Shown here piece by piece: positions 27,106-50,229 of a stretch of 64,000 nucleotides of DNA. This DNA is from Lasiosphaeria ovina (Eukaryota > Ascomycota > Sordariomycetes > Sordariales > Lasiosphaeriaceae). Each line of letters opens with the position of its first letter. Positions within the stretch are counted from its first letter, which is position 1. The DNA is taken from contig JAULSN010000003.1 in NCBI GenBank assembly GCA_033439765.1, forward strand, positions 2,232,001 through 2,296,000. The letters run 5' to 3'. The notes beneath the pieces were generated by a model, which was not told the origin of the DNA, did not search any database, and was given only the letters and a program-made list of their open reading frames with translations. The translations under genes and the position numbers were made by a program.

Positions 27106-30100
27106 CTACCTTGCCGTCAAAGCTCTCGCAGATTCAAAGATCCTTGGCGGCTTACTTTCCCTCCCAACCCCGCCGCCCGAGCACATGCTCTTGAAGAGAT
27201 CCCAGGCCGCCACTGCATCTCTCTTTCTCTGTCTCCTCTTCCTCTTCTCCCACACATCCCCCTTCGTTCTAGCCACCATGTCGACCATTGATAGGAGCCA
27301 GCCGTTGTTTTCCAGCCTCGCTACTGGAGGAATCGGCGGGATATCATGCCCCGGCTCCCCTCTGACGTCAACCGAGTTGAACTCGTCGAGGTTAATGGCG
27401 GGGAGATTCTCCGGGCTCGGCTCCTTTTGTCGCACTGTGAGGATATACCCCATGGTATGGGGGATCATGGGGGCCGACAGGTCGGGCTTGCTGACGGCTG
27501 CAGATACACATGAGTCAGCTTAAGCGTACGGGGTATGAGCCGGCATAAGTACGAAGCCGGGAGAGGCTTGAAAAAGTGAGCTGAGAGGGATGAATAAGAG
27601 AGCATGGAGAGATGAAGAAGAGTTAGGGTTAGGCTGGGAGATATGTCATGAGAAAAGGGCAACAAGAAAAGGCTGTACTCACACTCCCCCCAAAGCGCCG
27701 GGGGTACCCCCTTGACCACGGGCTGCGCATTAAGCGGGACTTCACCCCCTCTTTCTCCTTTCAGGGTAATCACCAACTCCGACGCGCCAAACTCCTGCGT
27801 CAGCTGCATCGGCCGCGCAAACAGCCTTGTCGTCAATATCTGACCCTGCCTATCCTTGACGGTGCTCGCTCTAGGCTGCTCCGTGTTGCCGCTGATCCTC
27901 GCCTTGAGTACGGGCACGCGCGTCTGCACCTCGACTCGCATGCCCGCGCCGAATACCTCGACTGGGCTCCTAGACGCCTCAGCCCCATCCGCCGGAGCGC
28001 GCCCGCCCGTGACATCGACGAGGTGGTCCGGCACAGGGGAAGACTCTCGCGGCGGCGTGTCAAGGGGAAGGTTCTTGACCATGCGGACAAACTGGTCGAG
28101 GGTGAGTGCCTTGGGCTTCGCCGGCGCCTGGCCGAACACGACCTCGATGTTCCACCGCCAGAGGTGCAACTTGGCCTCGCCGGCCAGCGGCGGCCCTCGC
28201 AGCGACAGCGTCGCCGAGAATTCCATGGGGCCAAAGTGCTCGGTCCAGAGCACGAGATTGAGCGCCGCCGTTGCGAAGAGCGTCACGGCCACATTGGCCT
28301 CGTACGAAAAGGGGTGGAACTGCATCAGGAAATCGGCATAGGCGCTGAATAGGATCCTGATGCTCAGCCTACCACCCAGCATGCGCTTGTTCACGACCAT
28401 GTCGAGCCTGCCTCCGCCCATCGCGGCAGACGGAGTAACCGCAAAGTATGCCGCTCCCGAGATGGAAAGCTCGGCATCGTACTGCCACGCGATACCCACG
28501 CGCGAGCGCGGGGTCGGGTAGTGCGACGGCACGGCAAAATGTGGATGAAATCCACCGACCGAGAACATGAAATCGCCGGCGTGTTCCGAGTTTGGAAGGA
28601 AGTAGGCGATTGCGAACGAGCCCGTGAGGCGGCACGAAGGATGGAGGACAAAGGACAAGGGCGTCAGCTCGCCCGTGACGATGACGGTGCCGTGGAACGG
28701 GTCGATGACGCACGAGACGGCAATGTCAACAACGAGAAAGGCGTGGGGGAAGGGATTATCCGGCGATCCACCCCCGACACCCTTGGGCACCTTGGGAAAC
28801 ACGGCCATCGCCGTGGCCAGGACGGCGAACTTTGGCTCCGCGCCAAGTGTCAGCGCAAAGACGGCCTGCGCGTCGACCGTCTGGAAGGCCTTCAGCCCCA
28901 GCCCAGCCACGAACCACATCTCGCCCTTGACAGGCGAGATGAGCTCGCTGGTTCCCGCGGATAGCACCACGTTCATCTGCTCTAGGACCGACCCGCCGGC
29001 TTCGGCGCGGTTGAGCGCGACAAATGGGAAGGCGGTAACTTCGGACGCGTCCACCGGCAGCCTCAGCCGCGAGTTGTATCCGAACCCGCCCGTGAGACCG
29101 TTGATCTCGGCGCAACCAAACTCGGCAATGGGGCCCTGAAGCATGCCAAATACAAAGAATGACTTTACGGCGAAGTCGGGGTAGAGCTCCTCGTACTGGC
29201 CGCCCGCGAGCGCCGACCACGCCGCAATGCTTGCGGCGATAGCCCCCTGGAATCCCTTCGACTTCTCGTTGTCAAAGCGCCGGAACGAGCCGGCTAAGCG
29301 CGTGGGCGGTTGTTCGAACGAGACAGCTATCCCCTCAACCTCGACGCTTGGTACCAGCGCGGCCAGATCTTCGGGGCGCGAGAGCTTGCTCAGATCCATC
29401 TTGAGTGTAAATCCCAAAAGAGCAAAAGCTATGGGGCCGATCTTCACGGTTGCGTCAACCGACAGCCGGATGATGGAGAATTTGTCGCCCTCCACAGACA
29501 GGCCGATGTTGCGAACCGACAGTGGACCAAACGTCTTGGCCATGGGTGCCACCGACTTGCCAGTGTTCCCTGGGCTGGCATTGGTGGTGGCGTCGGCCGA
29601 TGTTCCTGCAACAGTGGCCTTGCCTTTTACCTTATATTCTTTCTTGCCTCCTCCGCCAACCACGTGGTCGAGAATCAGCGTCGGCTTTGCGCCCTCAAGC
29701 AGGGCCACCTGAAAATGGTACCCCTTTTGCAAGTTTGGCTTATCGGGAGTAGCGTTCATCAGGAGCGGTTGGTCCCCAAATACTTGGTGATTCAACACTT
29801 CCACCTCGGCCGGCGAGATGTCGCGGTTCATCCAGACGACGCCAACCTGATCAAACGGCGGGGCAACGGTACCGACAACTGGAATGGTAGGCAGAGCTTT
29901 CAACTTAGACAGAGAGAAGCGAAGTAGTCTGCCCGGCCCTGCACTTTCCTTGCTAGGCCCTGGAGTCGCACCAGATTTGGAGCCATACGACCGCACTTGA
30001 GCCAGAGTAACCTCAAAATTGCCAATACTGGTCTTTATCGTGATAGTCAGCGCAAAAACGACGTGCCGCTGTTGTCCAGCCCTAGTACCCGTCTCCACGC

Positions 30101-33100
30101 TGCTGCAGGCCAGGGCAATGGTGAGTGCAGACCGTGGTATCTGCATCGAGTGAACAATCTTTGGCAGGTCGTTGACATCCTCCACCAGACCCTGCAACAG
30201 CGCCGCGATACTGAACATTTTCTCTTGGCCTTTGGCAACGTCTTCGTTCTTTACTTCGTGGAGGCTGGCATGAAACGACCACCCACTGTTGTCGGCGTCC
30301 CCTGGGGTTTGGCTCCTCTTCTTCTTGGCCACATGGGAGAACTGCAGGTCGAGCTCGACGCCATCCTTGAGCGACCCCAGCCTCAACTTCCCGTCCAGGT
30401 CAAACCGACCCGGCAGGTCCTTGTTGTACTCGTAGCTGAGCCACACATAAGTAATGTGGATCCCCGCCATGACATCCATGATTGCATCACTGGAGCCGTC
30501 CGAGGCGAAGAGCGCATACAAGTTGGCCACCTTGATGTTCACAAGCTTGCCGGAAATAAGCCACGAAGAGTCGCCGTTCTCACGCGCATACTCGATACGG
30601 GTACTGAAGGCGATCACGTCGTCGACCTGGGCTGCCTGGGCGGGATCCATTTTGAACGCCGGTGGCAGTGCGATCTCCGTGACGGCGTCAAACTCGACGA
30701 CAAATTCGGGCGAGCCACCCCCAAAGGTCATGGAGAGATCGAGGCGCAGCTCCTGAAAGCGCAGCACAGGAGGTGCATTCCCCTTATCCGTAGCTTCGGC
30801 TGCGTCGGCTGCCAAGGGCTGAGACTCGACGGCCGCCTCAAAGGAGATTGTCGTTAAGCCCCCGCCAAAGCTGACCTTGAAGCGTGCATCGCTGATCGTA
30901 TCCGGGATGCCGGCGGGGAAGACAAGGTCTGGTTCCCCAATGAGATCCTTGATGGAGAGCGAGTCGACGCGGTTGGGCGCCCGGGGTTCCATGGCCCACA
31001 CGCTCCCCAGAGCTTGGTAAGGGCGGAGCGTGGGCGGGATGTCAGTGGCCGAAAATGACTCATGCCACAGCTCGCTAGAGATGGAGTAGACGCCCTGGTT
31101 CCAGCGGAGCCTGACAAGAAAGGGAACTCTCTGCTGTTTGTTGGGCAATGGCAAACTGACTTCGATGTTGACGGTAAAGTATGCCGGCCGTGGCATGCTG
31201 GGCATCATCGAATCTATGCTCTTGCTACGAAAGCCGACGACAATACTGCGGAGGTCGAAGCCTTTTGTGAGATTTCCCAGGGCGTTTTTGATCTGCTCGA
31301 CAATGCCGTCCTTCTTCTTTGCATCAGGGGGGGGCGGTTGCGGTCCTCCCGATTCTTTCGAGATTAGACTCTCGCCCCAATGGAGCAGCTGAGCGAAAAT
31401 GTCGTCTGTGCTGTTATTCATCTGCAGCGTGACCTCAAAACCGCCGTCGCCAAATTTTATGCCCGCCGTCAAAGAGAGACCTTTAAGGGACGAAGGCGGC
31501 ACCACCTCCGTCTTGTCGACTGTGGTTTCGGTATCTAAGATTAGCGTCGCCTGGAGCCCGATAGTGGACTTTGTCTGGACGTGCGTCTCGAGCACGGCCT
31601 CAGCCACCCGGGTTCCCGTGAACAATACATCCGACACATGGACCTTGTCGCCCAAGCCGCTGCTCTTGAGAAAGTCCCCGATTGCGGTCATCCCACTAGT
31701 CGCCTCCATGTCTACCTCCATTGCCAGGCGAAGAATGAAACGCCAGTTGTGGCAAGGCACAAACCATAGACCTGATCGGTGGTCAGATGATGCGGCCGTT
31801 GCCCCTTGACTTAGGCCCGCCGGTGCCAGCGCGGCCGCAGGACGCAACTTGATGAGTCCTAGAATCCCAGCCACGAACGGCGGCAGATTATATCCCACGA
31901 GGTCGGCCAACTGAAGCAAGGACATTTTGCCACTGGTCCTGGTTGAGTCTAGAGCAAAGAGCATACCCTGGAGCCGCTTATCGTAGCCGAGAGGTGTCTG
32001 GAGAGTGGCAGCAGCGTCTTGGCCAAACTGAGAGTCTCGCATTGTCTGCTCTGTCGTGAACGCGAGCAGCGAGGCTTGGAGATTGTCAGAGCCTGACGCC
32101 CCCTTTGCCCTTGAATTGAGCTCAATCTCGACTGCATCCATTTTGATTTCGCCGGACGTATCAGTTTTTCCGCTGATGAGTACGCGAGTGTCGGCCATTG
32201 GAAAGCAGTCATCGACCCATGAGGCTATATCCGAGGTCTCCGTTGGCAGAGCACTTCGCTGAAAGGTTCTAGTCGTAGGGAGCGCTTTCTTGATGTCATC
32301 GGTAAAAAGTGCCATAGTCCATAGCTCCAGATCACGATCTGGCGTTGTAGACTTATCGACAACTTGTGAGCTCTCGAACCCCTGGTTCCAAAGCGTCAGC
32401 TTTTTGAATTTCTTTGAGCCTAATTGCCCGTTCCCATCGCTGTCGCTGTCATAGGGGTCCCTGCGTTTGGCTCCCTTTTTCTTGCTCTTCCCCTTTTTCT
32501 CCTTTTTCCCTTTCTTCTGTTTGATAGGCGTGATCTGGGGGTTTTTGGTTATGAGGCTGCTCTTGACCACCTCAAGTTTTACATCCTCGGCAGTTGCTTG
32601 AAGCCACACAAATTGGACTAATTTCGGCCCCGCCGTCTCCGGTTGGCAACTGTGAGCGCTCCAACTCGTCCTCATGGTTGCACGAGCAACGTCAACAGCT
32701 TTCCAGTACCGTGAGTCGGCATCCTTGTCCTGGGCGTCCGGGGGCTGCCACGTCGCAGGTGGCTCGTATAGCTCTAGAAGCCCCTTGTCGCCTGACTGGA
32801 CTGGGAGTGTCCCCCCAAACTTGATGTGATTGACTGCCACCATCTCCTCCATGGCCTCACCGAGAGACGTAGCTAGGAGGTCAACAAGCTCCTGTCTCGC
32901 CTGATCTGGCGTGATGGTGATATTTTGCAACCTCTTGAGCTTCTCGAGCTCTGCCCTCAATGCCTCGAACAGAACAGCGGTACCGTCCTTGTAACTTATC
33001 ACAGTCTGGATGTTGAAATCCTTCAGTGACACGTACTCGGATTTCTTTTCAATCCAGTACGGTTGCTGGGTGGCAAGAATAGTGGGCGCCGCGAAACCGG

Positions 33101-34270
33101 CGTCTCTGCGCATATCCATGACGGCGAGTAAGAAAAAGAGTACCGAGAAGCCTGGGGTAGCGATTACCCACTTAGCATGCGTGTCTGGATGGGACGGTAC
33201 TGACAATCAACAGTAGAAAAGGGGAAACAAATAGTAGGCAACTGCATCAAAGAGGGAAAAATGACAGTGGTTGACCTACTGGGATGGCCGTGCTTTGCGC
33301 CCGCCGATATCACAAATGCCTTGTTCTGGAAGTTAACCATATTCTCTGGCATGGCGAAATGGGACCCGTGATGACCAGTCTTGACGACGTCCAGTTTTAC
33401 ACCACCCGGGGCGGTGGCATTATTTTCCATCCAGGCCAGCAGGACGCGCTCGCGATCCTCCTCGGCATCGCCGCCCGTGTAGAGGGAGACGCGGAGGAAT
33501 GGCTTGACGTGAGTTTTCGTAGTCGTAGGCCAGATCACAACGGCCATAATGGATGCTCCATTGATCAGGCGCTCACTTCCCTTGCCCGGGTGTTCCGGAG
33601 CCACATCATAGTTTGTGAACATCGCGTCGCTGATGAAGTGCTGGTCGGCCCCGACGACGAGAAATACTGGCCGTTCGTTGTTGCGAATGAGGTCGCAGTT
33701 CTCGTAGACGTGGTTGAGGGACGTGACGGGCGCCCAGGCCTGTGTTGGAGTTGGGTTGAACAGCGGCGTACCCGAGAAGAGATCGTGCCCCATGCAGGGG
33801 GTCCCGATGACAGCATTGCAAATCTCGAAGGTTTGGGCCGGTTGTTTTTTGCCTTTCCCACGTAATTTAAACAACAACTTTCCGTTATCGATTTTCCAGT
33901 TCGTGTTTCTCAGCTTATATATGGCCGTGTAGGGACAGTAAAAGGTAGCCGAAGGCTCGATGAGCGTCGACTTCTTGTCTTCGCTGCCCATAAAGTCGTC
34001 ATACAGAACCTGCGTAAGAGAGCGGTAGTGGTCGCCGTCCCAGTGCGTAATGACGATTGCGTCAAGCTTGAACGGGACTCCATTATCATATCGCTTCCTC
34101 AGCTCTGGAATTGAGGCATGCGTCGCATCGTATCCCTCAGTATGACCACCGTCGATGAGGACTGCCCTTCGGACAACATCATCGCGCACAAGAAGATGCA
34201 CAGCGGCGTCGCCGGCGCCAACGTTGATGAAGTACGAGTCCACTTGACAGTCGAGGTAGGAGAGCGTCAT
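27106..34270 (-). CDS. Giant protein: metallo-beta-lactamase domain plus DUF6603-like body, 2,299 aa
   Basis: A three-exon model, 34270-33280, 33199-27683 and 27497-27106, has introns of 80 bp (GTAGGT...GTCAG) and 185 bp (GTGAGT...TGCAG) and sums to exactly 2,300 codons. The N-terminal ~350 residues are a metallo-beta-lactamase fold like the stand-alone or ComEC-type domain: VGAGDAAV, VLIDGGH, the metal motif ITHWDGDH (~75-81), later VKTGHHGSH and SAGAKHGHP. The last motif is completed only after splicing, which supports joining the two long frames. A Lys-rich, NLS-like stretch is near 555-600. The C-terminal body (~1550-2060) has FGPLSVRNIGL, NGLTGGFGYNS and GDFMFSVGGFHPHF...HYP, which I associate with DUF6603, seen in bacteria and some fungi. 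Start ATG 34270 is the first ATG in frame. Nucleic-acid, nucleotide or lipid substrates are all possible; function unknown. Confidence 0.8.
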
Positions 34271-35165
34271 GGCCAGGCTGGTGATTAAAAGCGACCAATT
34301 CTCACACACTGTACATTCTGATACCGGCGTAAGCTTCTTCGCCTCCCACGTCAAACGATGTCGATGGCGATCCTGGGTCGTGACGACTGAAGCAGAGGTC
34401 GATCCTCAGCATCCAAGATTCGGAACGGATGCGGGAGGGCCGTTTCGTGCACCGGCCACCACCCACACCGACATCGTTTCCCCTTGACGCCATCCTTGGA
34501 CGCCTACCCGAACAGAGAAGGGAGCAATTGCAACCTTGGCAATCCAGCCCCCTGGGCACCGGTTTGGGACAAGACCTGCACGGTATCGCTTGGGGTTTCC
34601 CATTTCAGCGCTTCAGCTGCGCATCGGGCGCCACGTCACACCACTAGTTCCAGAACACAGTGCCAGCACACTGCCGACGGCACTACAGTCCAATCCATTA
34701 GTGTTTGTTAGCGGGGGACTTTTCGAGATTCGAATTGCCTCGGTAACTTACGGCTCGCTCTAAGGGTTATTTGCTGACGGAGACAATAGCTTCAGACTTC
34801 CTATTATCAGACTTCCTATTATAGAATCTTGGAGGCCGTTTCTCCCAAAATCACCTTTCAAATGTTTTACCTGGCCGCTGTAGTCTTTATCCTCCGTAAG
34901 TACATACCTAAGTACTACGCTAACAAGCGATCAGGGATAAGACCGTAGCGTCAATAGACTCTTGAGTTGTGATTGGAGAACTTGGAGGCTCCCTGCAAAT
35001 GATGAATTGTCGATTCTCGCTGGAAACGCAGGACGAAGACGAAGGGAGAACATCATTTCGATATTTTTCCGAGCATCTGTTTCTGCTCCTGGTAGAAGTA
35101 GATGTTCTTGATCCCGGACATGTACTTTAGGAATGCACGCGCCGAGAACGTGATCCGAATCCAGA
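34271..35165. promoter_or_regulatory. Divergent intergenic region between the giant MBL gene and gene A
   Basis: About 0.9 kb separates the two start codons, so both giant genes must be driven from this interval, suggesting shared control. No specific binding site can be named. A short ATG-initiated frame near 34863 (MFYLAAVVFIL, followed by a GTAAGT donor-like site) could be a leader exon but has no clear continuation. Confidence 0.5.
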
Positions 35166-37767
35166 ATGGCCGACATCGCAGCCCCAAAAGCCAAGGCCGG
35201 GGCTACTGTCGTCGTGCCAATGACGCTCCAGGCATTCCTCGTCGCAAATGACTTCGGTGACACGGCCTACCAAGTCGCGCCTCTTATGCTGCCCGACTTC
35301 TCCAAGCTCCAGCAGCATGAAACAAATAGTGCCGGGATCTCGACCGGTTTGGGGGAGCCGGGCGGGGACCACTGGGATCACCACGATCTCATGGACCGCC
35401 TCGACACGAGCTGGTGGCGACTGCGGGCGCGGTACAGTACGCGCTTCCGGGACGTTGCAACAGGACGCCCGCGTGAGGGCCGGTCGGGAGTCTACTTGAG
35501 CTGGTGTCTCCCTCGTCTGTACCGATCCGCCATCACGGCTACCGAAAGCACGATAAGCACGCCCGAAGGACGCGAGCACTTCCAGGCGAAGAAACTCCGG
35601 AGTGGGTTCACCGTCGGCGAGTCCGACGATGGAAACCAACCGAGTCAACACAATGTCCAGGCAGGTCTCTTGCTGCTAGCCTAGGTGAAGACTGAGAAAC
35701 CCCAGCAGCTAATACCTCAGCGGGCAGTTCCGTGCAGTGCCCGATCGTTGGGTTGTGATTAGAAAGGTCAGGGCCGGAGGCAGCAGCGGAACAGGATCAG
35801 GGAAAGAGACCTGGAACCTCGTCGAGAGCAACTGCATCCGCTCCCTCGATGACGACGACTTCATCGCACCCGACGGTCCAGACGTCGAAATATCCACTTC
35901 CCCAGGGATGAGCCCGTCAGACAATGCTGGACAACCGTTGTCAGCACCGTCAGTCATGGGCCGGTCGGCTAAGCTCACGCCCGATAATCTTGCCGGTGCC
36001 AAGAAGCGTAATTACCGCCACCCCTTCAATGCTTTCGAGATGGGCCACGAATTCTTTGTCGACTACCAGCCGCACAACATGGGCGTCTTCTCATTCTTTG
36101 ACGACCTTCGCGACTGCGTTGACGACACCACCTCTGAACCCGCTACAGTTGACTATGCCATCATTGGTTTCCACTCGGATGCCCGCAGTGATCCTTTCAT
36201 GCTCAAGCAGCCATTGAACATGGCCAAGAGTGACCACCCATTAAAAAATGAGGAACTTTTGAGCGCCCTGGGCCTCGTTCTGGGCGATCCAGGTGCCGCC
36301 AAAGACGGCAAGGAAGTAAGCGATGTGGCCAGCTTCGCTCAAACGCTCGCCAGTGAAGATGGTCGCACACTCACGTACGGCGTTCTTCGGAGCGTGCGCT
36401 TCAGCCGCAGGAGTGCCAACCACCTCTCAGCTCCTTCGATCACGCTGCAGGAGGAGGTATTTGAACACCAACCCGTCGCCGTCGGCCTCCACACGCTCGA
36501 TGCTCTTGCTGCCTTCTTATACGTCAGCCTGGGCGGGCCCAAGAATACGTCGGCAGCGGTGCACACTTTCCTGAGCCAGCTCGTCATGCTTGTGGCGCGC
36601 GATGATGATGTCGATTCTCAACGCAAGGCAGCAGACGAAGTGGCTGGCCACTCGTGGGTTGCAAGCAAGGAGGACACACTCTGGCGGTTGCCTCAGAAGG
36701 GCGAAGGCGGGGATGAGCAAGCCCAGTCCTTTATCGTCACCGACGAGCACCGTGACCAGCTTTTGACCCTCAACGCTCTCCAAAGGCAATGTGACACATG
36801 CGTCCGCGAGGAAGAGCAACTCTTGCATCAACTTTACGGTTGCTGGTGGAACGCTTGCGGCCTTCGTAAGCTCCCGGCCGATGTCCTCGTGTCGCGCCGA
36901 GGTCAGGTCAAGAGACAAGCCGGCGATATCGGGAAGAGATTTCACAGCTTGTCACAGCGGAAGAATGTGTTGAAATTAGAGATCGAGACAGCGAAAACAG
37001 GGTTGGAAAAGCTACTTGGTGTCGAGAAGAAGCTCATCGCTGCGCCGGCACGGCCGTTTGGTCGACACCAAGACCCGACAATCCTCGTCGCCGGCGCCAA
37101 GTCTGGGTGGCCACCAGCCTTTGATAAACCCCTACCAGTACGCCTGGCCAGCGAGGTTGCCCCGTCCACCGCAGTGCCACCGGCACCAAGCGAGGCTTGG
37201 TTGGACGGCATCCTCCCCAACCTGGCCGAGCCACTGAAACCATTGTTGCGAGAATTTTCTTTGGTAGATGAAGCTGCCAGGCGTTCTGCGACCTGGGATA
37301 AGAGCCCGTATGCAGGTTTGGAAGACATGCAAGACGTTCAGGGCTGGTTTCCGCTCTTCATCGAGTGGGAGCTAGAATACTACCACATTCCCTTCTCCAA
37401 GTGGATATTTGAGCCTTCCGACGAGCTAAGCGGGCGGTGGCGGTGGGTGATCCCGCCGAAAACCAATCTCGCGCAAGATCCATTGGTTGGAACGGATTGC
37501 CGCCGCATCCACGGGAGGACGGCTTTTGTACCGGAGGCGGCAATGACGCTGCGCTCGAGGTTGGATCAGCTGTTTGCGCAAACAACAGACCCAGACCTCC
37601 TCAAAGTCAAGGAAGACGTCCTGAACCGCGTGTCCGCCATGGGATACTTCTCAGCACCCCTATCTGGTTTCACAGACCAGCTCCTTACGCTCCGCCGAGG
37701 TCACCATCCTCTTCCCGCAGCGACATCGGCATCTGGCGATCTAGAAATCCTAGAGATGCTTGGCCTC

Positions 37768-37772
37768 GAGCC
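37768..37772. repeat. Target-site duplication GAGCC (second copy 43307-43311)
   Basis: GAGCC ends the 5' half of gene A and also begins the 3' half after the right LTR. Counting it once restores the frame GLEPNV across the insertion site. Confidence 0.92.
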
Positions 37773-37989
37773 TGTTAGAAAGGCCATACTGGATTTGGCA
37801 TGGTCTTGAGGGTCCGGGCAGGGGCCGGGCAGGGTGCGCACAGGGCACCTAATTAGACCGCCTTTTCCACAGGCTCTACACTGGTCCCCGGCCTGCAGGG
37901 CGAAGAGCTTTTCTTCCTTCTACACAACGGAATACACACACTTGGAATACCCTCTTTTTGACTGCTTTTGCATGCTTTGGCTTCTGAAA
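37773..37989 (+). repeat. Element 2 5' LTR
   Basis: 217 bp. It still contains CTGCAG and TGCATGC sites, which would be prime RIP targets, so this LTR has escaped mutation. Confidence 0.9.
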
Positions 37990-38003
37990 GTTATGAGCCC
38001 GGA
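37990..38003 (+). other. Element 2 primer-binding site (initiator tRNA-Met half-molecule type)
   Basis: GTTATGAGCCCGG immediately follows the 5' LTR. It is complementary to the anticodon arm of initiator tRNA-Met (GGGCUCAUAACCC), the half-tRNA priming used by copia/Ty5-like elements. Confidence 0.75.
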
Positions 38004-38090
38004 AGCTGCATTCCCCAATACAACAACAAACATCTATTGAAGCCTCTATACCGACAGAGCAGTCTACGCGCACCGCGCCCGGAAAACCAC

Positions 38091-41000
38091 ATGACAACAA
38101 AAGAGAAGACAGTCGCCCTCGAGGGCTCGGATGACTGGCAGGCTTGGAACAACACATTCATTAGCAAGGCCGTTACGGCCGACCTTTGGTCCCTCATCGA
38201 CCCTACCTCTGAGGACCGCGGGGACTTCCAACAGAAGCCGAAGAAGCCCTCATTCGTAGTGTTCTCGATGAGCAAGGAAGCGAAGAAGAGGAGGACCCAG
38301 GCCGCCGCGAGGGCCGCCTCGGTGACCCGGGGCAATACGCCGGGTGTTGCTCCGGACCCCAACAACCCGTAACCCGAAATACAGGTCGCTGAACCAATAG
38401 CTAACGAAGACCACCTCCCGGCCATATGCCTAGCGGACCTGTCAGATAAGGATAATAAGGTCTACTCGTAGAGCCTCGCCCTATACAATATAGATATGAA
38501 GGACTACGAGACAGAGCGTAGGGCACTTGCTGCCCTTAAGGACTGGGTGAATAAGACTGTCTCGGCGCACCTATACATAGTTGCGTGCGAGCCCATAGAG
38601 ACGATCACCAGGTGGTATACAAATCTATAGGCATAGGCGAGAACCACTTCTTCGAACGATATAGGGAAGGCGAGGACCGCCTATAAGCAAGCAGTTCTCC
38701 CTCTCTCGAAGCCCCCGAAGTCGTGGAAAGCATGGATCAGCCACTAGGAGGAAGCCCTACAGAAGGCCAAGGCCAAGAAGGTCCCTGAGGCGCAGGCACC
38801 GGCCACCTGGTATGACGATTTCGAGACGGCGATTAGGGAGGTAGGGTGGACTCACTAGTATGCTACCTACCGCCTAATGAACCAAAAGAATATCGATACG
38901 GGGACCCTTAATTACCGGGACCTGGTGAACGCGTTTAACTAGGAGGTTAGGGTATAGGAGGTAACGAAGAAGCCCTCACGGTTTACGAAAGGGTCCTTCG
39001 GCGTAATATACGGTAACTAGGATACTAATAGCCCCGAGGAAGGGAAGGCACCGGGCCCGAGAAAGCGGAAATACACCGGAGGTAGCCAGTCAGGGTGTAG
39101 GGTATGCTCGAATCCCCACACCTTGGAAGACTATTGGTTCCTTTTCCCTAAGAAGGCCTGGGCAAAATAGAACCCCTCGAAGGAGCGTAGGAAGCGGGTA
39201 GAGGAGGTTTTATAGGCAGATAACGCTCTGAGGAAGGAAGTCGAGGCCCTGAGGAAGAAGGTCAAGGGAGACCTGCCTCGGAGAGGAAGCGTAAGCAGGC
39301 CCCGAGAGCCGAGTAGGGCCCCGAAGTCTAGAGCCTCGAGCCGGGCACCAGAGCCCGCCACTACAATAGAGGACGCCCCGGAGGAAGATTGACTAGTACG
39401 CTACGTAGGTAAGGTCAATGCCTTATTCGCCGTATAGCACGTAGCCTTCTCGATGAACGAATACCCTCTCAAGCACTCGGTAATACTAGACTCAGGCTCT
39501 ATAATATATATCTTTAACCAAGTTAGCCGCTTCCTTAATATTCGGCACGCCCTCGCGGGGGAATTCGTATGGGCTGGGGACTACAAGATCCCTATTACTA
39601 TATACGGCGAGGTGGACCTATAAGTTAGTAATATATTCGGAGGAAAGAAGGTCCTAAGGCTATATAATATGGCCCTATATAAAGGCATCGTATATAACCT
39701 GGTATTATTACGGCGCCTATATAAGAGAGGTATATACTAGGATAATAGCGGGGACCCTACCTACCTACGCCGTATAACGGATTAATCGGTAGTATATATA
39801 CTATAGGCCCGGTACGACTAATTCGTTATTAAGTATATTCCGGAAGACCTGAGTAGGGCCGCCTTCTTCACGAGAAGGAACCGGTTTAATTCCTATACCA
39901 AAAGGAAGCCCCAGAGCGTAAGCGCCGAAATCTGGCACCTACGTATGGGCTACCCAGGCCCCGGCGCCCTAGAAAGACTCGTCAATATAGCTTAGGGGGT
40001 ACGTATCAAGGGTATTAAAATAGTCGAGTATAGCGTATACGCGCGGGCTAAAATAAAGCGACAGGTCAAACGAGAGCCAAAAGATAAGCCTCAACGGCCC
40101 GGGGACTACTTTACGATTGACTTTTATAACTAGGAGCCTAACGATAAGAAGTATAACTCCCTTATACTAGTAACCGACCGCTATATAGGTATAAGCTGGG
40201 ATTTTTATACTACTAACCGGAAGTACGTAACCCTTATTACTATTTTGGAAGCCTTCTTTAAGGAGTTAAGGGTTCAATATAAAGTCGTACCGAAGGTTAT
40301 CGAGTTAGATAACGAGCTCAAGTTAGTAGAGTTTACGGACTTCTTTAGGAGGTATGGCCTAGTCTAGAAGCCCTCGGCGCCCCGTATATAGGGATAGAAC
40401 GGTACCGCCGAGAGGGCGGGGGCGTTAGTCAAGCAGAAAGCCCTTACACTTGCTTTAGGAGCCGCATTCCCGAACAAATTATAGCGGGAGATCTCTCGAA
40501 CGGCTATCTACCTGCTTAATAGGCAGCCTCGCGCTCAGAATAACTAGAAGACTCCTTATCAGGCCTGGTATTCCTTCTTCAACGGCTATACTCTTCCGTA
40601 CTCAGGGCACTTACGGGTCTTTGGCTATAAGGCATATACGATGACCGATAGGGCCCAAAATAAGGAAGAACGCCTCAAGCGTTTTAAGCCTAAGGCGTAG
40701 ATCGGCTACCTCATCGGCTATATAGCGACCAATATCTATAGGGTATAGGTGCCTTCAAAGAATATAGTCATCGTCACCCGGGACGTCATCTTCGACGAGA
40801 ATACTATATTTGACGGCAAGCTGGAAACCCTAGCGTAAGACGTCCGGGAAATGGACCCTATAGCCCTCGCGAACCACCTTGAAGCCCTCACGGTTAGGGA
40901 ACCTAATATTGAGGAAGTAGTAGCCACCCCCGGGGACCAGGAAGATATTAGGGACATCACTAATATACTAGAGGATGACGACGGCGTTATAGAGGATGAG

Positions 41001-42986
41001 ATCGTGGCGTATAGGGAGGTCCCTAAGCCATACGGAAGCCACACGGCAGGAGGGAAGGGCAGCGGGTCGCTCCCTATACTACCATAGTCGCCGCCTACAG
41101 CTATGCTAGCCGGGGCGATTACATTATACGGGCCGGGGGCCGACCTTGGGGAAACCCGGGCAGCCAAGCTCAGTATGACGGCAGAATGCGGGCCGGGGGC
41201 TAATCCGGGGAAAACCCGAGCAGCCAAGCTCAGTATTCAGGAGTATTGGAATGGGTCTTTCTATACAGGCATATTATCTTCTAGGGTAGGGACCCTAGGA
41301 AGGAAGACCCTTACGAGGGCACAGGTCGAACGGTTACTGAAGACCCCGTTGTCTATATACCGCCGGGACCTCCCGGACCCACCGGGTCACCACGGGGACT
41401 TGAAGGACCACCCTATAGGGAACCTCTTCGAGGACGTAGAGAGGGTACATCTATAGAGTTATATAGAGATACGTTCGTAGGTAGAGGTCTTATAACGAGG
41501 CCTAAAAGGCATTAAGGTCCTAGACTATAGGTGGGTATACGTCTATAAGTTCGATAAATACGGAAGGTTTGTCAAATACAAGGCCCGACTAGTTATCCGG
41601 GGAGATCAATAGCCGAAGAACCTCTCGGAAAGTAATTACGCTATAACCCTAGCCGGCCGGTCCTTCCGCACGATTATAGCGATAGCTATACACTTCGACC
41701 TTGAGCTCCTATAGTATAACGCCGTTAATACCTTCGTAAATGCCTCCCTAGACGAGGAGGTTTATATGCGTATGCCACCGGGGCATAAGAAGCCGGGCAC
41801 CGTTTTGAGGCTCAATAAGGCTCTATATGGACTTAGGAGATCACCACTTCTTTAGTAGAGGGCACTCTCCGGGGTACTCAAGACCCTAGGCTATAGCCCC
41901 GTCCCTCACGAACCGTATGCCTTCACCAATAACGGCGTGATCATTTTCTTCTATATAGATGACATCGTCCTCGCCTTCAGGGAGTAATAGAGGAAGGAAG
42001 CTCTCGAAGCCATCGAGAAGCTCAAGGCCCGCTTCCAGCTTACGGGTGGGGATGATTTATAGTGGTTCCTAGGCATTGAGATCCTCCGTGATAGGGCCAA
42101 GCGGCGCCTATGGTTATTATAGTCTTTATATATTACCAAAATAGGTGCCCTTGCCGATATATCACCTACACCGCCCACCAGTACGCCTATAGCGAGGGAG
42201 GAGCTGTTACCCTATGAAGCTCTCGCGAAGAAGGCCGACATCCTACGGTATATGCGGAAGGTCGGCTCTATCATATATACCGCCGTTATCACTCGCCCGG
42301 ACATGGTTTTCGCCGTCTCCCGGCTCTCTCGCTTTACGACTAACCCCGGCCCGGAGTACCACAAGGCGGCTGACCGGGTCCTCGGCTACCTACTTCGTAC
42401 CAGTCATCTAGCCCTATAGTTCGGAGGCGACGATAACTTTAGGGTGGCTAGTGACGCTTCCTTCGGGGACAACTCGGTAGACCGGAAGAGCTTATAAGCC
42501 TACGCTATGAAGCTTTTTAGGGGCATGATCGGCTGGAGGGCGAATAAATAGGCCACCGTGACGACTTCAACTACCGAGGCGGAGTTGCTTACTCTCTCGT
42601 AGGCCATAAAGGAAGCCCTATATATTAGCAGGCTGCTGAAGGAGCTATACGTCAACCTTGAGGACTACCGTATTACCGTCGAATATGATAACCGTATGAC
42701 TATTCGGTTGTTGATAGAAGAGATCTCCCAGTTGAAGACGAACCTTCGGTATGTTGATATTCACAACCACTGGCTGCGGCAGGAATACAGGCTTGGGCAT
42801 ATAAAGGTAGTATACACGAAGAGCGTAGAAATGATCGCTAACGGCCTAACGAAGGCACTACAAAACAACGCCTTCACGGAGTTCGTGCATCAGATGAACC
42901 TACAGGACGTGTCACGGCAGTTGGTGGCTAGAAGGCAAGAGGAAGGAACCCCGGTTGGGCATTTGGATTTGCCTGGGGAGTTGTGA
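38091..42986 (+). pseudogene. Element 2 gag-pol, one frame with dozens of RIP-type stops
   Basis: From ATG 38091 to TGA 42986 (1,632 codons) the copia polyprotein stays in one frame with no indel, but more than 20 stops are counted between 38370 and 40470 alone, mostly TAG. The changes are transitions: CAG/CAA to TAG/TAA, TGG to TAG, TGCA to TATA. Recognisable parts: zinc knuckle CRVCSNPHTLEDYW (its third Cys now Tyr), protease VILDSGS, integrase (GTAERAGALVK), reverse transcriptase with YIDD but YNAVNTFV where the first catalytic Asp (YDAVN) is expected, and RNase H ending in GHIKVVYTKSVEMIANGLTKAL. Codons before ~38370 and after ~42690 look unmutated. The copy cannot make an active enzyme. 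Confidence 0.9.
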
Positions 42987-43077
42987 ATGCCCTCAGGGCA
43001 CGGAAAGGAAGGAAGGATTTTGTGTATTTACTTTTACATGCGGTTACTTTGGGCAGTTGAAGCCGGGAATAGCTTCA

Positions 43078-43089
43078 ACTGAGGGGGTA
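43078..43089 (+). other. Element 2 polypurine tract
   Basis: ACTGAGGGGGTA abuts the 3' LTR start TGTTAG, the usual copia-type plus-strand primer position. Confidence 0.75.
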
Positions 43090-43306
43090 TGTTAGAAAGG
43101 CCATACTAGATTTGGCATGGTCTTGAGGGTCCGGGCAGGGGCCGGGCAGGGTGCGCACAGGGCACCTAATTAGACCGCCTTTTCCACAGGCTCTACACTG
43201 GTCCCCGGCCTGCAGGGCGAAGAGCTTTTCTTCCTTCTACACAACGGAATACACACACTTGGAATACCCTCTTTTTGACTGCTTTTGCATGCTTTGGCTT
43301 CTGAAA
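43090..43306 (+). repeat. Element 2 3' LTR, with an in-frame ATG into gene A
   Basis: 217 bp. An ATG at 43289 reads MLWLLK and continues in frame into the 3' half of gene A (570 aa to 45001), so an LTR-started transcript could make the C-terminal half. Confidence 0.85.
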
Positions 43307-45001
43307 GAGCCCAATGTTCTCAGGGCGATCGAAGGAAGTGCACCCGAGCTGGCTCCGTTTGGGGCGTCACCAACCGCCGTCTCGCCACCCCTATATCTCG
43401 CCAACAACCTGACACCGTTCAAGCCTGTCATGCACGGCCAAGCACGCTTCACGAAGCTGATGATCGTCGATAAGTTTGGGCAGATTGTGTCGGGCATGCA
43501 GCCCGCCGACTATGCCGGAAACAGCAGCACCGAGCGATATTCGCTGTATCCTTGTGTGTCGCCGGGTCTTACCTGCGGCATCATCCATTCCGAGGGCTCT
43601 CAAGAGGGGCACTACCTGCCAAACACGACCGTGAAGGCGGACGACGGACCAAACGTTTGCCAGTTCTTCCAGATACCACCGCGTATCAACCAACACGCAC
43701 GACTCAACGTACGATTCTTAATGCCGAGTGCTGCGGGTGGGTCCAAGCCGACTGAGCCGACTGGGTTGAGTGGAAATACCGTCCGTCGTGTTGCCACCGA
43801 GTGGGATAACCCCATCTGGGCATGGCTCGTGACCAACTTCCAAAGCCACTCGGTCCAGGTATACGACGGCGACGGCAGGTTCGTCCAGGAGGCAATTATC
43901 TTGGAAGGTTCGAAGCCCAATACCCACCGTGTAAAACTTTCCATGGGGCCGAACTCTAGCGGGTACGGCGTTCCCCCAGACGGCCGACTCGAGCAGCTAC
44001 TCGAAGCCATGCAGCAGCCTGAAATCCTTGTAGCCCTCTTCGACATGCTTGCCGGTGCAGCCGACAGCGGCTGGCAGGCAACCAGTGCTGATCTGGACGG
44101 CATGCTGCCGGCAGTGTTTGGGCGCCCGTTCTGTATTGCCGACCTCGGGGCGTCGATCGAGCTGGCGAGCCCCCCTCTGTCAAACGCCTGCTTACTTGCT
44201 TCCTCGTCGTCTCCTCGCAGCGATGACCTTGCCAGCATCCTCGGCTATGAGTTCCCTGTTGGCCTCGGCAACCACACGGCCGCTTTCGACGGTCTAGTCG
44301 GCACCTTCCCCGCCCAAGGCCCCATCAAAATGATTGCAACGGCATACAGCCTGGATGCCATGGAAGCAGCCAACACCCCTGAGGACAGTTACAGGTCGGA
44401 TGAATATCGCCCCCAGCCACTCCTTTTGAAGCCATATTTCGTACACGGGGATGTCGGCGAGAACCACGATGAGGCCCAGGGATCCTTTGCTGCGGCGCAC
44501 GACGCTCAACTGGCCAAGAGCTGCGTCAGTGTCATAGTGGACGCCAAACTACCGATCCACGTCTACTCGGGCTCGCTGTTCCCAATGGCCGAGATCTCGC
44601 TACCCCAATTGTCCGTCGACACTGCCATGAGCAACATGCATGCATTCTTCTCCGTGGGACCCACGCTTGTCCCCGAGAAGCCGCGTACTGATCTCGTCCG
44701 GGTAATGATGGGCGGCGAGGACGACGGCCTAGTCATGGCATCGGGGCCAACGTTGCAGATGCCAACGGGGGGGACGGACGACAAGGGAAGGTGGCGGTGG
44801 ATGCAGCCCAAGGTGGAAGGCGAAGACGAAGAGAGCGAAAGTGATGCTGAAGATGCAGAGAGCGGGAGTGGTGAGCTTGTAGGTGCTACGACGTGGTTTC
44901 CGGTACAGATGTTGCCCGTCGACGGGTCATTGAAGGTCGAGGCTGCGGCACAGAGCGAGCTGGTCGAGGGATACATCATGGTCGGGTCTACCAGTCGATG
45001 A

Positions 45002-45732: not shown

Positions 45733-48700
45733 ATGTTAACCGCCTCGAAAAACACGTTGTACCCGGCCTTCTCGCGCCGGGAACCGGACCGCACCCTCAC
45801 GGCGAACTCGTCCATCGCTTCAGAAAGGCAACTTTCGCGAGAACAGCTGCGGATCTGGTCCTACCAGGAGCCTTCACTTGCTGTGGGATCATACACACTG
45901 GCCGTTTCCCAGCATATTGAGGTCACGGATCCGGAAACCAAGAGACCCGTTCAGAAAGACCTACGGTCGCCTAACACTCTATTGCGCGTGTCAAGTCCAA
46001 AGTTTCGGCTGAACGACCCCCAAAAAGACATCCACAGCGTGTATCCAGCACCGGGACACGTCGGGTATCCCGAGACTCTGGCACACGTTGTCTTGGGCCG
46101 CGACACAGCACCATGGGAGAGGCGACTAGAAGTTGAGTCAGGCGGTGCCGGCGCCAAATCCAACAACCAAATGCCGTGGCTGGGCGTCCTGAGCTTTGCC
46201 GAGGACGAGCTGGTGCTGGACGAACAAACCTACCGTGAGGCCGGCTTTCCAACAACCACACCGCCGCCAACGAGCCAGGGCGCCATTGCCACAACCGCGT
46301 GGGAGTTGGAGCGCCTTTCGGCAACCGTCTCACCACTGACTGGCAATGCCAATATCCCTGCCGACAAAAAAGGCTACTCCGACAAAGACGAGGTTGCGGC
46401 TCTGTTGCTTAGGAAAGTCGACTTTCAGCGGCTCTTCGCATCCTATGCGGTAACTGGAGGAGAAAAGCCCAAACAGCAGGCTACCTGGACTGACGCCCCC
46501 GATCTTTCTCGATTCCTGCACATGGCCCACGTCCGAGAGACACACGGTGGGTTCATGGCCAGTACAGTCGATCTCATGAGCGACAGCGGCGTCGGTGCCA
46601 ACCCGCAGCCTCGGTTCTCCGTCGTCGTCAGCCCCAGAACAGGTCCGGTTGGCGGCGAGGCTCCGCGGCGCATCATTTCACATCTCATCTCCCTCGAGGG
46701 CATCTCCAAGACGACGTTTTCTGGCCCACAGAGCAAGGCCGGCTATGCAGTTCTCGTCTCCCTTTTCAGCTGGGACTGGATGTGCATGCCAAAAAGCCAC
46801 GATGACTTCAAGGCCACCATGGTCAGACTCGGCAGGAACGTTCGCCCGCTGCGCGTCGGCTTGCCTGATGAACACGCGGACAGGCTTCGGGAGGCAGAGG
46901 AAAGGTACAAGAAAAGAAGAGACGCTGCAGCAGTGAAGGATGACGGCAAAGAGACAAAGGATGCCGATCCTAGCCTAGACCCCGGGAAACCGAACGCGGA
47001 CCGGGACCCTATGTCAGCTTGGCTGAAGAAGACCCTTGAGGCGGGATACACTCTGAAGCCGCACACGCTGCCCACGGGGCAGGTGACGCGGTCTCTGTTT
47101 CGGGGCCCCCTGATCCCTTTCGCGCCCTCGGGTGACTCGGTCCACCCGTTCTCTCAGACTGGCGAAGACCTCACCCTAGTCGATAGCGAATCAGGCCTTC
47201 AGAGTGTTTCGTACAAGACAGCGTGGTATCTTGGCCGCGGCCTCGCATTGGCAGACCAGTCCCTGACGGCTGCACTTCTCCGCCTTCGCGGTAACATACA
47301 CGCTGAGGCGGTCCGACGTGTCAAGGCCAGAAGATCTGCTTCTGCTTCTGCTTCTGTTGAAACTGCCAATGACGGCAACGACGGTGGAGTGGGGGCTGAA
47401 GAACATACCATGGCGGCCGCCGGTGACCTTACTGTCACGACATTCCTCGGCAAGTTGCAAAGATCTCTTGACCAGCTCGATAAGGCCGAAGATATCACCT
47501 CACTGGCGAACAGCGGTGGCGCCGTGCGCTGGCTTCGCACAGAGCGTGATCGGCAGAGTCATGTGGTAGACCGACTGTCGGCGGCAGGTGTCGCTCTAGA
47601 TCTAACAGGCGAAGAATACGCCAACGAGCTCCAGGCTGTTGCCGAAGCTTTCTTTGGATACCCGCCGGCGCCTCGAAAGGATGGTAAAGACGACAAGATT
47701 CCCCCGATCCCGCAGCGCGTCATGGACCCAGATGCCATACTCGTCCGGGCTTGGGCCCTTGACAAATTCTACCTCGCCGGCATTCCGATCCACTACTTCA
47801 TCCCTGACCCAGATATGCTCCCGCGGGAATCCATTCGGACCTTTAGCATTGATCCAACATGGATCGGTGCCGTCGTGGACGGCGGCCTTGGCGTAGCGAA
47901 CCACTTCGCCAGTGGTGATGATGCCGTCCGTAGTGCCATCAAGCACTGCCTCAACTGTTACCTTCGCGAGCTACGGCCAAACGGCACAGGGAAGGGCACA
48001 ACTCTGCAGCTTCCCAAATGGGGGTTCTTCCTGCGCAGTACGGCCATTACATCTTTTCCGGACATGAAGGTGGAGGCGCGCTTCAGCAAGGCTGTCCCGG
48101 ATGGGATCCGTGAGGTGCTGTACATGCAGGTTCTCGCAGACGATATTCTCGTCTGTCTCTTTGACCGCGTCCCCGGCGAAGACAACTTCGAGAGTGTCTG
48201 TATCTCGCAACCGCCCCATCAGCAAGGATTTGCAGTGGGATCCACCCTTACCTCTTCCGACCTCGAGACCGTCTTCCGACCTGTGCCATTGGTGGACTTG
48301 GAGACCGTGCCGGCAGGGCCAGATCGGGAGAAGCTTCGACAAGTTCTCGCACCCGTGTCTAGAAAGTGGGATACAGCGACTGCGGATCCTGTATACGACT
48401 GGGATTCGGGGATGTTGCGTCCAGACGCCCTCATGAAGCAGTACGTCGCCGAGATGGCTGGCCGAGACGGTTCCAAGATTTGGAAGTGGAAGGGGTCGGA
48501 AATGGACGTGCCGTCTAGCCTTCTGGCTTTGCAACTAGGCAGGCCAAATTTCCAATTGACGCTCGGGGTTCAGAAGAATGATCAGGGAGTTAGCAACGAT
48601 GACGGTGATGGCCGGTGGACGAAGCCAGCGGTGCAGCTACACACTGGTCCAAGAACAAAAGCTCGGAGCGGCGGTGGCAATAATATCCACAGTCCCAAAG

Positions 48701-50229
48701 CCTCAGCAGCAACTCCGGTGCCCCCAAGGCTACGCAGCTATCCGGTCGACCCGAAATGGGTGCCGTTGCCTTCTGGTCCAGGTTCCCTTGCGGCCCAGTC
48801 ATTACTTGCAACATCCATGCCCAACGATGAACTCACAGTTCAAGGGCTTGTGGACAAGACCACTCAGGACTTACTTCTGCCGCGTGTCCAATATCCCAAA
48901 GAAGTCATATGGTACCCGCAGCCTAACAAGGCGCTCTGCCTTCCGCTCTTCAGCCCGGATGAGACAACCCACGCGAATACCAGCTTTTTAAACGGAGGCA
49001 GCACTGTCTGCGCACTTGACAGGCCGATGGACTTGGTCTTTTCCCTGAAACAGATGCAGGAGGTCGACAACAAGGAATATGACTATCCCGAGCGCCTAGA
49101 GGTGCGAATTCCCGTCACACTGGCCTCCACCAACAGCGTAGACTTTGCAGGAGAAGTTGGTGTCGACAAAGCTCCAACGCCGTTGCTCATGATCCCAGGA
49201 TCGGCTGCCGCACCGGTATTTCCCGCTATCGAGGGACTAAATTTGAGCAGGAGTCCACTTTGGACATATTGCTGCCGCCTTGTTTTGGGCGGCCTGTACA
49301 AGGCTCCAGAAGAAGGCAAGGATGTGGAAGGGAACTTTGGCCCAGTGATAGGTTCCCCAGCTCCGCTATATCCTGGTGCGTCTCTTCTGCTGGTCGTCAC
49401 AGCTTGGCCGCGGTTTGGACGCATCAAGATGAAAAACCTGGCCTTTGATGCATCCTTCATGATGCGCCAGGTCAACGTCAACAACCCCGCCCGGACTGTT
49501 TTCGACACCCAGTTTGACGTCTCGTGGAAGGACGGCGCCGTCTACTCGCGGCGCGTGACTGTTCGACCAGCCATCACACTCAAGATCACAGAGCCAATGC
49601 AAGTAAAGACGAGCGCTCTCGGATGGCAGTTGCAGCTGAGTGTGAAATCCTCTTCGCTCCTGGGACCCGATGAAGAAGCCATCTGGTACGCCAAACTCCT
49701 CAACGGCGACACTGCCACCGGGCGTTTGCCGCCAGACGCCCTCCGCAAATCCACTTCTAGTACTCACCTAGCAGAGAGGGTCAACGGGGAAGTTCCTGAG
49801 GTGCTTCCAGACTTTGTCGAGGTGTTCATCGTATCCAAGTCTCCGAAAAGCCAGCCGCTGGGCCCGCGCACAGCGCCATTCTTCTTCCCGAGGTTTGCCT
49901 CGCGGAAGCAGCTCCAAGACCTGCTGTACTCGATCGATGTGCGGTGCAACTGGAATACCGACGAAAGAGACGGCGGAATATCTGTGAAGTGGGATATCCC
50001 GCCTCCGGGGACGCCGTTTCTGCAGTCGCTCCGGCTAGGGGTCAACTGGTACCGCAAGGTTGTGTGGGCCAAGCTGGACAGCGGCTCGGCGTTTGTGCCG
50101 AAGGCCCTGCTGGATATGACGAGCCTGCGACACTTGATAATCTTTGACTACACGCTCGGTGTGGATACCGAGCACATGGTGGGCGAGTTCCGGGGCTTTA
50201 CTGGCTCTCGAGATGTCTACTTCCCGTAG
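45733..50229 (+). CDS. Gene B: giant protein of unknown function, 1,498 aa
   Basis: A single uninterrupted exon runs from ATG 45733 to TAG 50229. Visible segments are VGSYTLAVSQHIEV (~51-64), LRVSSPKFRLND, LAHVVLGRDTAPWERR (~116-131), PWLGVLSFAEDE, a charged Lys/Asp-rich linker (~390-425), LFRGPLIPF (~455) and SVSYKTAWYLGRGLALAD (~490-508), KFYLAGIPIHYFIPDPDMLP, and a beta-rich C-terminus ending RDVYFP. The motif order resembles very large bacterial proteins of unknown function that I recall with PHVVL-R-TLPWER and SYAAAW-LGRLLAL motifs; this is memory, not a search. No catalytic signature, signal peptide or membrane helix is seen. It follows gene A by 0.7 kb in the same direction, so the two probably act together with the divergent MBL/DUF6603 protein. 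It appears intact and free of RIP stops. Confidence 0.8.
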   Translation: MLTASKNTLYPAFSRREPDRTLTANSSIASERQLSREQLRIWSYQEPSLAVGSYTLAVSQHIEVTDPETKRPVQKDLRSPNTLLRVSSPKFRLNDPQKDIHSVYPAPGHVGYPETLAHVVLGRDTAPWERRLEVESGGAGAKSNNQMPWLGVLSFAEDELVLDEQTYREAGFPTTTPPPTSQGAIATTAWELERLSATVSPLTGNANIPADKKGYSDKDEVAALLLRKVDFQRLFASYAVTGGEKPKQQATWTDAPDLSRFLHMAHVRETHGGFMASTVDLMSDSGVGANPQPRFSVVVSPRTGPVGGEAPRRIISHLISLEGISKTTFSGPQSKAGYAVLVSLFSWDWMCMPKSHDDFKATMVRLGRNVRPLRVGLPDEHADRLREAEERYKKRRDAAAVKDDGKETKDADPSLDPGKPNADRDPMSAWLKKTLEAGYTLKPHTLPTGQVTRSLFRGPLIPFAPSGDSVHPFSQTGEDLTLVDSESGLQSVSYKTAWYLGRGLALADQSLTAALLRLRGNIHAEAVRRVKARRSASASASVETANDGNDGGVGAEEHTMAAAGDLTVTTFLGKLQRSLDQLDKAEDITSLANSGGAVRWLRTERDRQSHVVDRLSAAGVALDLTGEEYANELQAVAEAFFGYPPAPRKDGKDDKIPPIPQRVMDPDAILVRAWALDKFYLAGIPIHYFIPDPDMLPRESIRTFSIDPTWIGAVVDGGLGVANHFASGDDAVRSAIKHCLNCYLRELRPNGTGKGTTLQLPKWGFFLRSTAITSFPDMKVEARFSKAVPDGIREVLYMQVLADDILVCLFDRVPGEDNFESVCISQPPHQQGFAVGSTLTSSDLETVFRPVPLVDLETVPAGPDREKLRQVLAPVSRKWDTATADPVYDWDSGMLRPDALMKQYVAEMAGRDGSKIWKWKGSEMDVPSSLLALQLGRPNFQLTLGVQKNDQGVSNDDGDGRWTKPAVQLHTGPRTKARSGGGNNIHSPKASAATPVPPRLRSYPVDPKWVPLPSGPGSLAAQSLLATSMPNDELTVQGLVDKTTQDLLLPRVQYPKEVIWYPQPNKALCLPLFSPDETTHANTSFLNGGSTVCALDRPMDLVFSLKQMQEVDNKEYDYPERLEVRIPVTLASTNSVDFAGEVGVDKAPTPLLMIPGSAAAPVFPAIEGLNLSRSPLWTYCCRLVLGGLYKAPEEGKDVEGNFGPVIGSPAPLYPGASLLLVVTAWPRFGRIKMKNLAFDASFMMRQVNVNNPARTVFDTQFDVSWKDGAVYSRRVTVRPAITLKITEPMQVKTSALGWQLQLSVKSSSLLGPDEEAIWYAKLLNGDTATGRLPPDALRKSTSSTHLAERVNGEVPEVLPDFVEVFIVSKSPKSQPLGPRTAPFFFPRFASRKQLQDLLYSIDVRCNWNTDERDGGISVKWDIPPPGTPFLQSLRLGVNWYRKVVWAKLDSGSAFVPKALLDMTSLRHLIIFDYTLGVDTEHMVGEFRGFTGSRDVYFP

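Follow-up and report, generated by a model that had tools for sequence, protein, structure and literature searches.

Three giant genes that lie together in the genome of the ascomycete Lasiosphaeria ovina belong to a gene module that is conserved across bacteria. The genes, which we call A, B and C, occupy part of a 64,000-nucleotide stretch (the window) on contig C23 of the 51.7-Mb genome. A carries a DUF6603 domain, while B and C of the window match no family in Pfam or NCBIfam. The three-gene module itself is well supported. For its mechanism we infer, tentatively, a modular complex of A, C and B that would carry exchangeable enzymes and be aimed by exchangeable binding domains. Taken in full, the proposal is of a large modular machine with an A-C-B core, present in at least eight bacterial phyla, taken up as a cluster by an ancestor of many ascomycetes and equipped with exchangeable enzymes and target-binding domains, with the enzyme joined to a core protein in the fungus of the window. 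We regard this as possible rather than probable, and no such machine is described in the papers we searched. Three giant families without an assigned function form a single conserved unit, and work on any one of the genes can now inform the others.

The module in bacteria

A sequence-only reading of the window had suggested checking whether the three families are neighbours in bacteria, and they are. We collected 59 bacterial loci from genome contigs through a DUF6603 alignment. Because they were chosen by two DUF6603 peptide patterns, the 59 loci are not a random sample, and near-copies are included (for example L029/L030, L049/L050 and L047/L055). Within the stretches retrieved, profiles of C and B detected C in 56 of these DUF6603 loci, B in 52 and the pair in 51; the genes always share the strand of A and in most cases abut. 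The rows of our trees span at least eight phyla: Chloroflexota, Bacteroidota, Pseudomonadota, Actinomycetota, Bacillota, Cyanobacteriota, Acidobacteriota and Thermodesulfobacteriota. The loci without C (L034, L039, L063) or without B (L034, L045, L058, L063, L064, L065, L072), eight in all, are short contigs or contig ends. Among them, L063 looks like A alone with an OmpA-family gene after it, but the contig begins inside its A. The arrangement varies in detail, with C divided into two adjacent genes in many bacterial loci and B preceding A in L029-L033, L039, L071 and L079. The A frames of L057, L062, L068 and L069, at about 3,600-3,700 amino acids, are the longest DUF6603 frames in the set.

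Plasmids carry the module as well. A plasmid search with C returned seven records from Streptomyces, Embleya and Paenibacillus. DUF6603, C and B stand in a row in Streptomyces NBC_01276 and in P. polymyxa, and the gene order on S. clavuligerus pSCL4 is metallo-beta-lactamase-like (MBL) gene, DUF6603, C, B. The MBL gene adjoins A on this plasmid, whereas it is fused to A in the fungus. One Streptomyces plasmid holds a smaller module, with an A of 848, a C of 748 and a B of 1,151 amino acids. Such smaller bacterial versions make complex formation and structure directly testable.

The families also occur together when whole genomes are compared. In the order to which Chitinophaga ginsengisoli belongs, 198 genomes were searched: 11 have A, 8 have C and 7 have B. 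Every genome with B or C also carries A, and neither B nor C is found in the 187 that lack A.

Some observations weigh against an invariable three-part core. In these searches, three of the 11 A genomes in this order have neither B nor C, and in a fourth B alone is missing. At the loci of the three A-only genomes, and at a third copy in genome G001, B is absent and the DUF6603 scores low with the module-A profile; a weak C-like neighbour stands at two of these four loci. The DUF6603 proteins of L088-L091 score above 400 bits to PF20248 but 54-68 bits with the module-A profile; by these profiles a weak C-like gene lies beside A in two of the four loci (E 1e-7 and 8e-9) and B in none. There is a DUF6603 subfamily, then, that lacks B and, at two of four loci, a detectable C as well. 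On a Paenibacillus sonchi plasmid (L019), C and B are side by side with no A or DUF6603 detected. The sequence-only reading held that an MBL/DUF6603 protein encoded alone elsewhere would undo the module idea. As a general rule A alone was not upheld, the A-only-looking L088-L091 scoring low as module A; the subfamily without B and the P. sonchi plasmid count in part against the module idea.

Exchangeable genes beside the core

The genes on both sides of the core, which were annotated in part, differ from locus to locus. For the gene immediately upstream of A, the enzyme slot, Pfam scans covered 27 of the 59 loci, and many of these genes are without a match above cut-off. Of 64 bacterial loci, 10 have an MBL gene upstream of A, abutting it in nine and separated from it by a single frame in one; two near-copy pairs are among the ten. 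By profile, four loci, of which two are near-copies, have an Exo_endo_phos-like (nuclease-like) gene in the slot, and L049 is the sole locus above the Pfam cut-off (24.6 against 24.5). The slot of L038 holds an LCAT-like (lipase-like) gene (29.3 against a cut-off of 21). The sequence-only reading had taken an MBL hydrolase for the only visible enzyme of the module. As a fixed part it does not hold up: MBL is found at 10 of 64 loci, nuclease- and lipase-like genes take the place in a few others, and tblastn with the window MBL detects none at a second set of the three genes on contig C29 of L. ovina. Another occupant is an unnamed family of 430-540 amino acids, found in L040, L044, L061 and L087 from different phyla. 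Its members in L044, L061 and L087 have no Pfam match above cut-off, and the family is a candidate new enzyme.

Downstream of B, a family in 11 loci has a common N-terminal stretch of about 263 amino acids and is variable behind it; its L017 member has an F5/8 type C domain and its L073 member a weak Collar match. In a second, looser group, the L029 protein resembles genes of L031, L035, L037, L039 and L048 over its middle part and further genes over its Collar-bearing end. Binding-type domains are frequent in the genes downstream of B. Among individual cases, the laminin-G-like lectin domain Laminin_G_3 occurs in L029, Lactonase and SGL propellers in L036, Kelch and PQQ propellers in L051, Collar in L037 and L039, and Fib_succ_major in L042. 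Another scan covered 66 of 176 candidate neighbours; among the 25 of 113 families listed, Collar came first with 5 members, followed by Fib_succ_major and propellers (3 each). A variable enzyme slot together with variable binding genes suggests a programmable targeting system across bacteria, kept by many fungi.

The fungal locus

Three giant genes had been read from the letters of the window, and their place and layout are borne out by the open reading frames, which also contain the quoted motifs (Table 1). A lies on the minus strand, and B and C lie in tandem on the plus strand. The best protein match for the locus is L. ovina B0T24DRAFT_699394. Gene A has introns between its two open frames and ahead of its last exon, with approximate limits. 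Window C is homologous to bacterial C over its roughly 900 N-terminal amino acids. It ends well before its Trichoderma relative P0002, homology stopping at residue 1357 of 1930.

Table 1. Positions in the window of genes A, B and C and of the retroelement inside B.
Feature	Position	Strand	Details
Gene A	27106..34270, limits approximate	-	MBL-like N-terminal domain, long beta-rich body, DUF6603; start ATG and stop located
Gene A, open frames	33164-34354 and 27465-33206	-	exon limits approximate
MBL-like part of A, first exon	33164..34354	-	open frame, motifs, profile match
Gene B, whole extent	35166-45001	+	
Gene B, coding piece 1	35166..35684	+	motif GVYLSWCLP
Gene B, coding piece 2	35737..37772	+	ends at retroelement
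Copia-like long terminal repeat (LTR) retroelement	37773..43306	+	5.5 kb, inside B; LTRs, target duplication, reverse-transcriptase motif
Left and right LTR	37773-37989 and 43090-43306		217 bp each, 1 mismatch
Target duplication	37768-37772 and 43307-43311		GAGCC, 5 bp
Gene B, last coding piece	43312..45001	+	motifs GRPFCIADL, FDGLVG
Gene C	45733..50229	+	1,498 amino acids, single exon

The product of A had been read as an MBL-fold enzyme joined to DUF6603. The DUF6603 part is clear (E 1.6e-123, 413 bits against a curated Pfam cut-off of 27 bits). The MBL part falls below the cut-off of Pfam Lactamase_B (17.6 against 22.7 bits), yet the motifs THWDGDH, TGGD and GHHGS are present by eye and align with the bacterial module MBLs, and it scores 81.8 bits with a profile of 10 bacterial module MBLs that was made without the window. 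Two of the bacterial module MBLs (L029, L047) exceed the Pfam cut-off. The metal-binding motifs and the similarity place the window part in the metallo-beta-lactamase superfamily; the Pfam score does not.

Fungal gene neighbourhoods were viewed in one genome, that of L. ovina. The second A-B-C set, on C29, repeats the relative layout of the window: a DUF6603 gene on one strand, and genes like B and C on the other. Its B has one intron containing TAA and is otherwise open. We define the A-C-B module as DUF6603, C and B within one short stretch of DNA; it is present in the window and on C29.

Origin of the fungal genes

Long exons and few introns had been taken to fit late acquisition, a claim that finds no support here. 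A search of ascomycetes with C29-type B as query found it widespread in Pezizomycotina, including Fusarium, Xylaria, Aspergillus, Orbilia, Ascobolus and the lichen fungus Peltigera (names among the best 120 of 357 matches). On this spread, together with the single fungal clade in the B and C trees, we reject late acquisition.

The trees were quick ones (SH-aLRT support, LG+G4, no mixture model) with many rows of odd composition, built without six near-copy loci and without short rows (B spanning fewer than 600 profile positions, C of fewer than 550 amino acids). In the B tree, 13 fungal rows including the window piece lie on one side of a branch (support 100), and the fungal rows plus 15 bacterial rows again lie on one side (99; 100 in a run with the window piece twice, where the fungi counted as two changes). 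The C tree likewise has 13 fungal rows on one side of a branch (100). Only two fungal rows enter the A tree, both from this genome. They stand together (100) inside a starred set of 17 rows; 13 of these come from the bacterial comparison group and two do not. That comparison group was defined after the B tree was seen; uniting the fungi with it takes three changes in the A tree (approximately unbiased test, p 0.29) and two in the C tree (p 0.22), and is not rejected. The sequence-only reading had suggested looking for fungal sequences nested among bacterial ones, and the B and C trees have one fungal clade near one bacterial group. In the C tree, the C of C29 stands apart from window C, whose companions are Trichoderma, Fusarium and Myriangium proteins.

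On this sequence evidence, the simplest account of the fungal genes would be one transfer of the whole cluster. The acquisition looks old, as C29-type B is found in many ascomycetes. It looks as if a whole multi-gene cluster moved from bacteria to fungi and stayed together. As a part of the broader proposal, the window locus may be a fungal descendant of the conserved bacterial gene cluster, a view that we hold with some reserve.

Structure and searches

Structure prediction covered one bacterial A and one bacterial B. A is modelled as a long amphipathic beta-sheet, with a difference between strand faces of 2.65 against 1.46 (standard deviation 0.18) in 500 shuffles. Its best match in Foldseek is the outer-membrane S-layer protein SlpA, and LptD, ushers and ApoB100 are among the best, all with low TM-scores. 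These matches are barrel-like; a place among the outer-membrane beta-barrels would call for a closed barrel of matching size and shape. No solved structure matches the predicted B as a whole, and Foldseek gives nothing for it at E 0.001 or better.

Profile searches of the PDB gave nothing for C and chance or coiled-coil matches for A and B (E 0.014 or higher). In PHROGs, A and C match nothing, B of L021 and one extra gene reach E of about 0.01, and the MBL protein P0121 hits families whose function is unknown and also a tail family (E 6e-8 and 2e-5). A viral fold library yielded four rows at E 0.001 or better with TM-scores of about 0.1, which led nowhere. One bacterial B has no match in 50,697 phage records, and A has none in viral contigs. 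Pfam and PDB searches with the long fungal C proteins led nowhere, and the same holds when the fungal C tail is compared by profile to D, A, B and MBL. By eye the Trichoderma C tail resembles a lectin propeller, a likeness the searches do not support.

Mechanism, alternatives and known systems

The fixed core of three families suggests that A, C and B would form one large complex, and N-termini without a signal peptide by eye in ten bacterial loci suggest that it would be cytosolic. The amphipathic sheet of A fits contact with membrane or lipid, which A would provide. The complex would carry the exchangeable upstream enzyme, which in the fungus is fused and would be carried by A itself, and the exchangeable downstream protein would aim it at a target surface in the manner of a receptor-binding protein. 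Such a complex would act as a modular weapon or a particle for delivery. Lysis would release it, or in fungi it would work within the cell against invaders or grazers. Candidate targets would be a rival, prey, a grazer or the cell's own membrane.

A lipid carrier or membrane scaffold would need no weapon. A would hold lipid like ApoB or LptD, B and C would be its partners, the enzymes would modify the cargo and the binding genes would tether the particle. LptD, ushers and ApoB100 are indeed among the best matches of A, its strands are amphipathic and one enzyme slot holds a lipase-like gene. The TM-scores are low, however, nuclease-like and MBL enzymes are odd partners for such a carrier, and the patchy spread (11 of 198 genomes) with changing neighbours resembles that of conflict genes. 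We think this account unlikely. The best Foldseek match of A, SlpA, and the binding domains downstream could instead point to a surface or extracellular assembly (an adhesin, a matrix or something S-layer-like) with enzymes for attachment or polymer feeding. This seems quite improbable, as the N-termini that were read bear no signal peptides by eye, and an outer membrane is lacking in the Gram-positives and fungi that share the system.

Internal defence is a further alternative, with the MBL as a nuclease of the LmuA, Avs1a or reverse-transcriptase-associated type, switched on in the cell by a sensor of A, B and C. The patchy distribution fits, and the window MBL matches the PADLOC defence models LmuA (E 3e-13), RTasMBL (2e-9) and Avs1a (5e-8). 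The NCBIfam Avs1a model also matches (E 7e-11), but at 41.5 bits against an equivalog cut-off of 420, so the window MBL is not assigned to Avs1a (AVAST type 1). PADLOC has no match at E 0.01 or better for A, B and C of L020 or B of L021, Pfam finds no NTPase part in A, B or C, and the lectin, propeller and tail-collar domains would suit a target that lies outward. We consider internal defence very unlikely. The module MBL and the LmuA, Avs1a and ComEC-type proteins share one broad domain family; the module MBL differs in being fused to or beside DUF6603 and in scoring far under the NCBIfam cut-offs for Avs1a and ComEC.

The modular, exchangeable complex that we favour has parallels elsewhere, but none of the known systems tested clearly fits the module. 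A is a clear member of DUF6603 (PF20248), which Pfam describes as a domain of unknown function, in a description that links it to neither B, C, the enzyme slot nor the binding slot. Papers with DUF6603 or PF20248, or with matching descriptive terms, were absent from the literature searched, which included few subscription papers and no preprints. Tc (ABC) toxin complexes are large multi-protein complexes with exchangeable enzyme and binding parts, in bacteria and fungi, and in all this the module resembles them. The TcA channel is alpha-helical, whereas the model of A is a beta-sheet, and Pfam scans of window A, B and C, of L020 A, C and B and of L021 A and B found no Tc family, so the module is not assigned to them. 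Downstream genes with tail-collar and Gp10-like domains recall extracellular contractile injection systems and tailocins; sheath, tube and baseplate are missing, however, from the neighbour Pfam matches listed (in one scan, 66 of 176 neighbours and 25 of 113 families). A Tc complex has also been reported in the fungus Metarhizium (PMC13236867).

State of the window copy and further copies

The sequence-only reading had treated B as a plain gene with few introns and overlooked that a retroelement cuts its coding sequence. The reverse-transcriptase motif of this element is of Copia type and was recognised by eye. The inner part of the element has a TpA/ApT index of 1.48 and a (CpA+TpG)/(ApC+GpT) index of 0.67, values that match the expectation after repeat-induced point mutation (RIP); the measured exons of A, B and C have 0.45-0.61 and 1.18-1.29. 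The LTRs are near-identical although the inner part is strongly RIP-like with many TAG codons. Either this is a young insertion of an element mutated beforehand, or the mutation was confined to the inner part. With the retroelement in B, and with C lacking the last part of its Trichoderma relative, the window copy of the module is probably damaged and no longer intact.

Solitary fragments resembling A, B or C lie elsewhere in the genome: L026 (C12:1129k), L025 (C23:730k), L027 (C4:601k) and L028 (C28:1234k). From their sequences they look like relics of further copies, the B fragment with an inner TAG. Between C and B of the C29 set lies a gene (L023:354-1265) that resembles a fungal lectin propeller; the likeness is by eye, and Pfam and PDB searches gave no match. 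About 4 kb from this second module, also on C29, a frame (L024:6371-7768) has the motif PYEALSYVWG, which we take to be HET-like. A second Copia-like pol frame, of 896 amino acids, lies at 17540-20230 on the minus strand of the window and has gag-pre-integrase-like motifs by eye.
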